Source: Pontibacter qinzhouensis
Lineage (GTDB): Bacteria > Bacteroidota > Bacteroidia > Cytophagales > Hymenobacteraceae
Assembly (NCBI RefSeq): GCF_008017455.1
Contig: NZ_VRTY01000009.1
Span: forward strand, 1 to 64,000
Reading direction: 5' to 3'
Length of the DNA: 64,000 nt
Program-made: the position numbers and the translations under genes
The notes under the pieces: model-generated
What the model saw: only the letters and a program-made list of their open reading frames with translations
Database searches by the model: none
Told to the model about the DNA's origin: nothing
In this document: in pieces, positions 27,315-32,262 of the stretch
Layout of the letters: each line of letters begins with the position of its first letter
Numbering within the stretch: position 1 is the stretch's first letter

Positions 27315-27737
27315 CTAATTCCCCTGCAGCGTTACTACCAGCCAGCGTTTTGAGGCGTGGTCGCGGTGCTCGCAGAGGTAAATGCCTTGCCAGGTACCCA
27401 TGTTAAACTTGCCGTTGGTAATAGGCACCGTAACCGACGAGCCAAGTATGGCAGCTTTTAAGTGGGCAGGCATATCGTCGGAGCCTTCGAGGGTGTGCTT
27501 GTAGTAAGGCGCGTTTTCCGGCACCATCTTGTTGAAATGGCTTTCGAAGTCCTGCCGCACGGTGGGGTCAGCATCTTCGTTAATGGTGAGGCTGGCAGAG
27601 GTATGCTTGATGAACACATGCGCCAGGCCCATCTTAATATCTTCCAGCTCAGGCAACTGCGACTCCACTAAATCGGTTATAAGATGAAAGCCCCGCTTTA
27701 CGGCCGGCAACCTGATTTCCTTCTGATACCATTTCAT
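27315..27737 (-). CDS. YjbQ/UPF0047-family protein
   Basis: 140 residues of the YjbQ family. The conserved segments are GLAHVFIKHTSASLTINEDADP, HTLEGSDDMPAHLKAAILGSS, and GTWQGIYLCEHRD at the C terminus. Members have weak thiamine-phosphate synthase activity in some bacteria and are trimers with a buried metal site; the physiological role is unsettled. The family is normally about 130-140 residues, so it is complete. Single gene with Repeat A copy 9 upstream. Confidence 0.93.
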   Translation of the reverse strand: MKWYQKEIRLPAVKRGFHLITDLVESQLPELEDIKMGLAHVFIKHTSASLTINEDADPTVRQDFESHFNKMVPENAPYYKHTLEGSDDMPAHLKAAILGSSVTVPITNGKFNMGTWQGIYLCEHRDHASKRWLVVTLQGN

Positions 27738-27821
27738 GTTCTAATTTTGATTACTTGAATGAGTGAATGAATGAGTGAGTGACTGTTTAATACGGTGCTG
27801 CTCCTAAATAGCTGCGTTTGG

Positions 27822-27880
27822 GAATTATTCTAATGAAAACAGCCTTCCAAAAGCTTTTAAACGTTTTTTAGTCAAGAGCC
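27822..27880 (+). repeat. Repeat A copy 9
   Basis: AATTATTCTAATGAAAAC, core GCCTTCCAAAAGC, end GTCAAGAGCC. It is followed by TGATTAGTTAAGAGTTATG, a composite module that the MITE at 27902 interrupts. Confidence 0.8.
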
Positions 27881-27901
27881 TTTGATTAGTTAAGAGTTAT
27901 G

Positions 27902-28226
27902 ACTGATGTTACGCACTCATGCGACCAGCAAAGAAATATTATTCCCAGGGCAACTCCAAACAGTCGCTTTAGCCTCAACTAAGAGCACAAATTTCCAGTT
28001 CTTGGGTTGAGCGCCTTTGCAGGTTTCCGGTGCCGCAGGCAGCCTGAGCGACAGCGAAGGCAGGAAAGGTGCAGCAGCGCGATGCCCGAGAACGGGGCCC
28101 CGTGGCCTTGAGCGCTAAGACTTCTACAATGAAAAATGAAAGCCTAAGGGCACCGGATGAAACTGTTACCAAATGTATTAGAACCAATTTAAAGGAGACT
28201 TCCTGATAAATGTGCGTAACATCAGT
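27902..28226. mobile_element. MITE-like element with TATG target duplication
   Basis: 325 bp bounded by perfect 15-bp terminal inverted repeats: ACTGATGTTACGCAC at 27902-27916 and its reverse complement at 28212-28226. TATG precedes the left end and follows the right end, consistent with a target duplication. Removing the element joins GTTAAGAGT and AGTTAAAAGTTGG, which restores a composite spacer seen intact elsewhere. The interior is GC-rich, with the 10-bp palindrome CGGGGCCCCG, and holds only a doubtful 70-codon minus-strand frame. It is non-autonomous: no transposase. Confidence 0.7.
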
Positions 28227-28277
28227 TATGAGTTAAAAGTTGGAAAAAATACTTTCCTTCACCCATTTAATATTTCT

Positions 28278-28316
28278 TCATCTTCAAATTTCCAAATCCT
28301 CACATCTCCAAATCAA
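28278..28316 (+). repeat. Repeat C copy
   Basis: TCATCTTCAAATTTCC then AAATCCTCACATCTCC, nearly identical to 17901-17939 and 57751-57787. It ends 12 nt before the stop of the beta-helix lipoprotein gene. Confidence 0.8.
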
Positions 28317-28327
28317 AAATCAGCACC

Positions 28328-29707
28328 TTAATCAATTGTTCTCTCAAATGCCCCTATGTCGGGGGTGGTGGAGCTGCGGCTTTGGCCTTTTATGTCGCGG
28401 CGCACATCTAAAAGTGGCTTTGCGGCTCCGTTGGCAACAGAAAGGGTATCGAGGCTAAAATCCTGATTTGATATCGACTTGAATTTTGGTGCCTGGTTCA
28501 GAATATTGTTATCCTGGTTAAGCAGCTCTTTATAGAGGTCGGTTCGTAACACGTTGTTGGCAACTTCGGCTGCAATGGTACCGCCATCGCTTTCGAGCAG
28601 CAGCTCGTCTTTAAAGTTAAAACCATCGGAGTACACAATAGAGTTGATGAGGCGCAGGTTCACGGTCATGTTCCGGATATCGGTGCCCGGTATGTAATCG
28701 GCTACCACAAAGGCAGGTGATTCGCGCTGCATCGGGTTGTTGTAGTTCACGATAGTGGAGTAAATAACATCGTAGTTGCCACCTCCAAGGCCACTAAAGC
28801 CATACCGCCCGCAGTTATAGATGAGCGTATTCACCACCCTGATATCAGAAGTAAACCCGATAATGCCATCCTGAAACGCGTATTGTATAGCACAACCTTC
28901 TACCAGTGTGCCACCTTTGCCCGGGTTACCGATGCGTAAGCCCCAGGTTGTGTTCCTGATGTCGGCAAACCGGATGCGGTTGTTCTCGCTTTGTGTCAGA
29001 ATCTGTATGCCTTGCCACTGCCCCGGTGCCTGCTGGTAACTCTGCTCACGCCTGTAACCACTAAAAACCACGCGTTCTTCGGCTGTTCCCTCCACGAGCA
29101 GTGTTCCGTTTACGAGCAGCACCGCTCCTGGTGTGGCAAATATTTGACTGCCTTTTTCTATGGTGAGGGTGGTGCCGGCGCTAACCAGAATGGTGTCGAG
29201 CAGCACATGCGCTTTGTCTTTGCCCCACACGGTGTTACCGATGGCTGCTTTGCTATGGAAATAAGCATTTTGCCCATAGGCGACCAGCTTCACCTTTTGC
29301 AGGTTGCCATTGGTCCGGAACATAATGGAGTCGCTTACCAGAAAGGGTTGGTTGCTGGCATTCGGGTTGATATTTACCCGCACCAGCACATACAGGCTAT
29401 CGCGGCCACGCAACTCTAGGTTGTTGGCAATAGGGCTCTCGACTCCGTTAATGGTCAGTTTGTAAGGCGATGCGCCTGCACCACCTAAGGTAATGTCGCT
29501 GATGCGGACGGCCTTTTGGTTAGGATTGTAAACCTTAAGCCGCTTGGTAACACTGCCCCGCGCCACAAATACTGTATCGAAAAGCACGGTATCGGCCGAG
29601 AAATGAAGCACCGCCTCAGGGTCAGCTGTAATCACCTCATCGTTTGGCGTACACGAAAACACCGAGAGCAACAGCAGAAGGGGTAAAATAGCGAGGAGGT
29701 ACTTCAA
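28328..29707 (-). CDS. Lipoprotein with right-handed beta-helix (choice-of-anchor Q-like end)
   Basis: 459 residues from a TTG at 29707. The signal is LLAILPLLLLLSVFSC with a lipobox Cys, so the protein should be lipid-anchored. Residues from about 35 to 125 resemble an immunoglobulin-like anchoring domain (SADTVLFDTVFVARGSVTKR). The middle is a beta-helix of short repeats (GTLLVEGTAEERVVFSGY; GCAIQYAFQDGIIGF). The C terminus ends PDIGAFE, as in proteins called choice-of-anchor Q. It is probably a cell-surface structural or carbohydrate-binding protein; no catalytic motif is seen. Confidence 0.78.
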   Translation of the reverse strand: MKYLLAILPLLLLLSVFSCTPNDEVITADPEAVLHFSADTVLFDTVFVARGSVTKRLKVYNPNQKAVRISDITLGGAGASPYKLTINGVESPIANNLELRGRDSLYVLVRVNINPNASNQPFLVSDSIMFRTNGNLQKVKLVAYGQNAYFHSKAAIGNTVWGKDKAHVLLDTILVSAGTTLTIEKGSQIFATPGAVLLVNGTLLVEGTAEERVVFSGYRREQSYQQAPGQWQGIQILTQSENNRIRFADIRNTTWGLRIGNPGKGGTLVEGCAIQYAFQDGIIGFTSDIRVVNTLIYNCGRYGFSGLGGGNYDVIYSTIVNYNNPMQRESPAFVVADYIPGTDIRNMTVNLRLINSIVYSDGFNFKDELLLESDGGTIAAEVANNVLRTDLYKELLNQDNNILNQAPKFKSISNQDFSLDTLSVANGAAKPLLDVRRDIKGQSRSSTTPDIGAFERTID

Positions 29708-32131: not shown

Positions 32132-32262
32132 GATTGATGATTGTTGAATGGCTACATGGTTAAATGGTTGATTTTGAATGAACGACTGAGAGGATGAGTG
32201 AACCACTTTTAAAACTTTTAACTCCTAACTTTTAACTCTTAACTAATAAAAGATTTAGCATC
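32132..32262 (-). repeat. Composite repeat block, minus orientation
   Basis: After copy 11 come ATTGTTGAATGGCTAC, GGTTAAATGGTTGATTTTG, AACTTTTAACTCTTAAC, then TAATAAAAGATTTAGC and ATCTT. This is the 17826-17977 module order read backwards, without Repeat C. Confidence 0.55.

Follow-up and report, generated by a model that had tools for sequence, protein, structure and literature searches.

The window, that is, the whole 64-kb stretch of DNA that was analysed, carries a 325-bp element without genes of its own between a gene of the UPF0047 family and a large ORF, immediately downstream of a copy of a short, very abundant repeat (repeat X). The features are as follows.

27315..27737, minus strand: flanking gene, UPF0047 (PF01894), assigned with Pfam
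27823..27890, plus strand: copy of repeat X (AATTATTCTAATGAAAACAGCCTTCC...GTCAAGAGCC), adjoining the insertion on its 5' side; its end is approximate
27898..27901, plus strand: left copy of the target duplication, TATG (possibly TTATG, 27897-27901, if the right end lost one T)
27902..28226, plus strand: non-autonomous IS701-type element (MITE), family A, 325 bp, from the analyses of ends, similarity and duplications
27902..27916, plus strand: left terminal inverted repeat ACTGATGTTACGCAC, exact over 15 bp
27992..28163, plus strand: structured passenger module Y, covariance-model core (186.5 bits); similarity to Y outside the shell extends to about 28190
27998..28007, plus strand: 5' arm of the outer stem of Y, GTTCTTGGGT, pairing with 28084-28093
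28084..28093, plus strand: 3' arm of the outer stem of Y, GCCCGAGAAC, pairing with 27998-28007
28093..28102, no strand: palindrome CGGGGCCCCG, overlapping the Y outer stem where it ends and the following hairpin where it begins
28212..28226, minus strand: right terminal inverted repeat (ACTGATGTTACGCAC on the minus strand), exact over 15 bp
28227..28230, plus strand: right copy of the target duplication, TATG, read directly from the flank
28328..29707, minus strand: flanking ORF of 459 aa with a weak right-handed beta-helix match below the Pfam cut-off
Repeat X copies on the plus strand of the window: 5448, 12622, 13902, 17788, 17978, 18335, 27823, 29910, 36830, 44146, 47189, 50512
Repeat X copies on the minus strand of the window: 5260, 22947, 32108, 36187, 53374, 62307

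Both copies of ACTGATGTTACGCAC are free of mismatches and TATG stands on both outer flanks, as the preliminary description had read them. The same description had called the element devoid of a transposase and GC-rich within an AT-rich spacer; the longest listed internal ORF has 70 aa and no Pfam match, and in 60-base windows the GC content reaches 0.68 inside, compared with 0.27-0.42 outside. The palindrome CGGGGCCCCG is likewise present and occurs once in the window, where 0.03 occurrences are expected. The insertion target is a spacer of 7-bp repeats (GTTAAGA/GTTATGA/GTTAAAA). This spacer had been said to survive intact elsewhere, and an array of 7-bp units resembling the flanks of the element was indeed found at 32213-32243 on the minus strand. 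The intact array of GTTAAGA/GTTAAAA/GTTAGGA units at 32213-32250 (minus strand) lies near a copy of repeat X.

Because the target sits in a 7-bp repeat with possible periodicity, the TATG repeat of this element is ambiguous by itself, and the claim of a target duplication is based on the duplications across the family (36 of 45 elements). The ends call for the same caution at this scale: the window holds three matches with at most three mismatches, a count that 22 of 100 shuffles reach and that is not significant, so any excess of ends was decided by the genome-wide count.

We also examined the syntenic place in a relative of the same genus (G026), where both flanking genes are kept along with the repeat X head. 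The gap between the aligned parts is 171 bp there and 431 bp at the window locus. A relative without the insertion had been proposed as a check, and the MITE is absent from G026, but the spacer beyond repeat X has a different sequence and is hardly alignable, so that the comparison shows absence and not a letter-exact empty site.

Copies, target sites and repeat X

The genome is represented by a 6.2-Mb draft assembly of 220 contigs. Searching it for the 15-bp ends, as the preliminary description had recommended, gave 112 sites with at most two mismatches (57 forward and 55 reverse), against nine (7 + 2) in a reversed control. We fetched 62 stretches around the end sites listed (100 of 112) and around similarity matches; together with the window, these contained 46 inward-facing end pairs, one of which spans 2407 bp and was left out before duplications were counted. 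The other 45 enclose 91-388 bp. The stretch at 27902-28226 is a real element without genes, with dozens of copies in its own genome, the nearest at 91% identity. Contigs C63, C203, C206, C157 and probably C177 terminate inside MITE copies; contig ends inside repeats are usual in short-read assemblies.

In an all-against-all comparison, 31 of the 45 elements (145-383 bp, including some deletion forms) grouped with the window element as family A. The remainder fell into groups of five (183-195 bp), four (239-278 bp) and two (206-207 bp) plus three singletons, indicating that several unrelated interiors are found between the same ends. The group of about 194 bp carries a GTCCCCCTTTGAAGGGGG hairpin that was also seen beside Y in three other genomes (L031, L038, L040, L050, L067; L084, L172, L173; L182, L193, L197) and may be a second passenger with a dispersal of its own.

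Thirty-six of the 45 elements stand between perfect direct repeats of 4-7 bp, which are exactly 5 bp long in 26; in 2000 shuffles of the right flanks, 3.7 elements on average and never more than 10 had such a duplication. Nine elements have no clean duplication of 4-7 bp. Pooled over both orientations, the 26 exact 5-bp cases give the modal target consensus T-TANTA-A. The modal duplication of the family is thus 5 bp; that of the window element is 4 bp (TATG), or 5 bp (TTATG) if a T was lost from its right end.

Repeat X (AATTATTCTAATGAAAATGGCCTTCCGAAGG..TTTTT..GCCAAGGGT) is about 60 bp long. Counted by its head with at most two substitutions (reversed control, 0), it has 18 copies in the window and 114 in 456 kb of the same genome, which extrapolates to roughly 1500 per genome. 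Fifteen of the 45 elements lie within 40 bp of a repeat X head, nine of them at an identical offset in X; of 20000 positions picked at random without regard to genes, 693 were as near. Given this abundance of repeat X, we regard the shared offset alone as notable. Copies of repeat X in the same genome show the site used by these nine elements uninterrupted. By eye, six ACTGATG-ended elements of G026 (L160, L161, L162, L165, L166, L167) enclose a repeat X head, so that nesting of X and the shells goes in both directions.

Autonomous relatives with the same ends

We scanned 79 genomes, the present one included, for the exact 14-mer of the ends and found it in 10. In G026 (locus L080), two end sites, matching at 15/15 and 14/15 positions, bound a complete 1142-bp insertion sequence with a 5-bp duplication (TTTTA) and one 360-aa ORF. 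The protein scores 331.7 bits against NCBIfam NF049921 (IS701 family; cut-off 250) and also matches Pfam DDE_Tnp_1. BLAST found no match between the short elements and this insertion sequence, which share the ends only.

Relatives of the transposase at E ≤ 1e-40 occur in 16 of 204 genomes of the bacterial family, namely G026 and 15 genomes of one other genus (g34), whose proteins are 38-47% identical to that of L080. The g34 set comprised 19 loci, six of them too short. Among the 13 examined, four (L394, L396, L410, L411) have ACTGATGTTACGCA-type ends and 5-bp duplications (TGTTA, TAGTA, TTTTA, TACTA), one has a variant pair with a 4- or 6-bp duplication and eight have no end pair. In nine loci of the NF049921 family, including the L080 element (as L108), the duplication was 5 bp in five and 4 bp in one, with no end pair in three; the four 5-bp loci other than L080 showed related ends and the duplications TAATT, TATAT, AATAT and AGTCA. 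That transposases differing at about half of their positions share these ends suggests that the ends are the recognition sequence of the NF049921 subgroup.

An autonomous insertion sequence with the same ends, which the preliminary description had asked for, thus exists in relatives (L080 and four g34 copies), but none was found in the draft assembly of the genome itself. The statement that the transposase resides elsewhere in the genome was not borne out there: the L080-type transposase has no match in this assembly, and the three partial matches to the family model are all below the cut-off. One of the three, at L140:1361-1714 (contig C145), is what is left of another IS701-type element and adjoins other, ATAGGAGTTACGCA-like ends. 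Two candidate autonomous copies were set aside. Among end pairs spaced by up to 3.5 kb within the stretches fetched, the only long one (L018, 2407 bp) lacks a 4-7-bp duplication, and the 482-aa ORF between its ends is unrelated. The other candidate, a DDE_Tnp_1 ORF in L057, lies 1.1 kb from a lone end, with no second end (at most five mismatches) among the matches listed.

The autonomous relatives in the NF049921 subgroup of the IS701 family share with the MITE the 14-15-bp ends and the short AT-rich duplication and add the DDE_Tnp_1 transposase that the window element, unlike IS701 insertion sequences, does not have. Classical IS701, as defined in PMC2266710, duplicates 4 bp and has the end consensus ---YACT-Y--YR. 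By that definition, the 5-bp duplication that is modal here and recurs in L080 and four more copies differs, and the ends of the family do not fit the consensus. Because of both differences, we file the mobilising insertion sequence under the NF049921 subgroup and not under the classical core.

Fold and dispersal of module Y

Module Y is about 170-230 nt long. We collected 57 Y-like stretches (55 from the same genome and two from G026), 15 of which lacked a recognisable anchor pair; one of these (L060) was restored by hand. After exclusion of the deletion copies L020, L055:4204 and L069:3912, 40 copies (39 from the same genome and one from G026) were aligned, for which RNAalifold gave 21 pairs, 14 with two-sided compensatory changes. 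In 29 Y loci from relatives, whose alignment was fitted to the covariance model, 98.0% of cells were paired and 83 cells were two-sided, against 21.7 after shuffling (0 of 500 shuffles), while slid versions of the fold were paired in 37-49%. A MAFFT alignment made without the model from the 29 stretches and the window element also folded, at -32.6 compared with -0.4 ± 0.9 for 50 column shuffles. This covariation indicates that the Y fold is selected. We did not retain a possible CCGGTGCC/GGCACCGG pseudoknot: alignment A1 (mostly the same genome) shows hardly any variation in the pair, and by eye the 3' part looks different in other genomes.

In the MAFFT alignment, the plus-strand fold has 68 GU and 2 AC cells. 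A fold exists on the minus strand too, but a poorer one (-25.5; 45 GU and 14 AC). Alignment A1 has 65 GU against 8 AC, or 29 against 8 when one near-fixed column is removed. Judged by fold energy (-32.6 against -25.5) and by the GU and AC counts, the strand that reads as plus in the window is the likelier folding strand of Y. Rfam 15 returned no family up to E = 5 over window positions 27600-28500, and in seven other Y loci it gave four matches below the gathering score, none overlapping Y.

Y also occurs outside the shell. Ten copies in the same genome appear free of ends: eight have no end with at most four mismatches within 400 bp on either side, and in two such an end lies on one side only. 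By eye, three or four of the ten seem to be bounded by other, GAGTGCATAACATAT-like inverted ends. A 392-kb sample of the genome beside the window contained no Y, where about three were expected. The covariance model detected Y in 64 of 148 related genomes, the present one included (43 of 50 in the same genus and 21 in other genera of the family); at most 19 candidates were scored per genome, so that copy numbers across the 148 genomes are floors. No exact end 14-mer was present in 35 of the 42 Y-positive genomes scanned for ends. Among the matches listed (at least 112 stretches), records with the Y pattern were named Pontibacter or Rufibacter in 76 of 80 loci, and the other four may be chance or misbinned contigs.

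In the complete genome G031, an evenly spread 400-kb sample contained 13 Y copies, corresponding to about 140 per genome, and one ACTGATG-type end (at most two mismatches). Twelve of the 13 copies are clear of ORFs of at least 100 aa and one overlaps an ORF of 136 aa. By eye, these copies share longer flanks: 12 of 13 have a right end of the GTCGAAATGACA type, and 4 of 13 have its inverted left counterpart within the 160 bp shown. The long flanks of the G031 copies (L204-L223, e.g. L212:14649-14820) contain ACTATAG heptads and a GGACAGGTCGCGACCTGTCC-type hairpin, and part of the copies have TGTCATTTCGAC-type inverted ends. Taken together, the GC-rich interior of the window element is an independently dispersed structured module and not mere filler.

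What the fold is for admits more than one answer. The stems of Y may have been kept merely as mechanically useful palindromic DNA (a cruciform, a terminator, or an intermediate of replication or transposition), without giving rise to an RNA, which we consider a serious alternative with a somewhat less than even chance. The 13 G031 copies are in keeping with it, showing no orientation bias (the upstream gene is on the same strand in 8 and the opposite strand in 5; the downstream gene is on the same strand in 6, opposite in 6 and missing from the segment in 1), as is the folding of the minus strand. However, the excess of GU over AC cells in both alignments points to one strand as the one that folds, as would be expected more of RNA or single-stranded DNA than of cruciforms in double-stranded DNA. 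A role of Y as the omega-RNA that guides a TnpB or IscB nuclease borne on the element is improbable: omega-RNAs resemble Y in size, fold and association with mobile elements, but Y has no Rfam match and TnpB (PF07282) was found in none of six Y-bearing genomes, compared with 6 of 14 control genomes. IscB (PF14239) was found in none of the six and likewise in none of the 14 controls.

We infer that Y acts as RNA or single-stranded DNA. A further proposal, which we advance tentatively and regard as rather unlikely, is that Y is a new structured module, made as RNA or single-stranded DNA across the family, which persists by riding in unrelated transposon shells, either as a selfish folded molecule or as an RNA useful to the host. 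Among these shells, the ACTGATGTTACGCAC/IS701 shell is well supported, and the GAGTGCATAACATAT-like and TGTCATTTCGAC-type shells were seen by eye.

Mobilisation and significance

The family combines terminal inverted repeats, target-site duplications, many copies, no transposase gene and an autonomous relative with the same ends; it is a solid new MITE family of a known kind. We interpret the window element as an IS701-type non-autonomous derivative that was moved via its 15-bp ends and carries the dispersed folded module Y, with a probability of about 0.93. The earlier suggestion of a non-autonomous element moved by a transposase is upheld in that the copies are many, their duplications are of 5 bp and IS701-type autonomous elements with the same ends occur in relatives; mobilisation in trans and the chemistry of transposition are what we infer. 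An IS701-type DDE transposase of the NF049921 subgroup would recognise the 15-bp ends and insert the element at short AT-rich T-TANTA-A targets by a short staggered cut, usually leaving a 5-bp duplication. The enzyme would be supplied in trans by an autonomous copy that the search of the assembly did not find, and Y would be a cargo with a history of its own, its fold under selection and dispersed in its own right. Since the search of the draft assembly gave no matching transposase, the family is probably immobile in this genome now, or dependent on the re-entry of an autonomous copy.

Two other origins of the ends were weighed against this IS701-type derivation. In one, the ends would be those of a hairpin or REP/BIME-type repeat that a RAYT (Y1) transposase has spread, and not those of a DDE transposon. 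REP/BIME sequences are likewise high-copy intergenic palindromic DNA, the elements have strong internal hairpins, and Y1_Tnp matches number 5, 6 and 5 in the three genomes tested. However, Y1 enzymes are not known to make target duplications, which are present here, and autonomous DDE elements have identical ends. Unlike REP/BIME, Y is about 170-230 nt long and multi-stemmed, and none was found in the eight loci examined around Y1 genes (of 16 matches), so that this origin is very improbable. Equally improbable is an artefact in which TATG reflects the 7-bp periodicity of the spacer and the inverted ends a duplication within a composite repeat, or chance: the GTTAAGA/GTTATGA/GTTAAAA target and the intact array at 32213-32243 would suit it, but the 45 paired elements stand in varied flanks, 36 with duplications, and repeat X copies show the site of nine of them uninterrupted.

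The bacterial MITEs presented in PMC3733652 (RUP, NEMIS, Bcr1, ERIC, Nezha, EFAR) are likewise short and non-coding, with 15-30-bp ends, strong secondary structure and movement in trans. The present family differs from them, as portrayed there, in having several unrelated interiors per end set, the main one being a dispersed covarying module. BrickBuilt of Porphyromonas gingivalis is, in the account of PMC4596501, also an intergenic MITE of Bacteroidota with another kind of repeat inside. Its cargo is described there as a 23-nt tandem minisatellite, whereas the module here is folded, non-tandem and present in several genera. The open-licence literature searched, mostly at the level of listings, contained no publication tied to Y or to the MITE family.

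These results tie a MITE family to a transposase subgroup through ends shared across genera. In the MITE, an IS701-driven shell encloses a structured passenger that is dispersed independently, and its distinctive point is this modular make-up, in which one shell bounds unrelated interiors and the main, covarying interior also occurs in many related genomes without the shell. If Y is a functional RNA, it would be one without a match in Rfam 15 in the searches run. A conserved folded module that rides in transposon shells makes the view that MITE interiors are junk a testable one.
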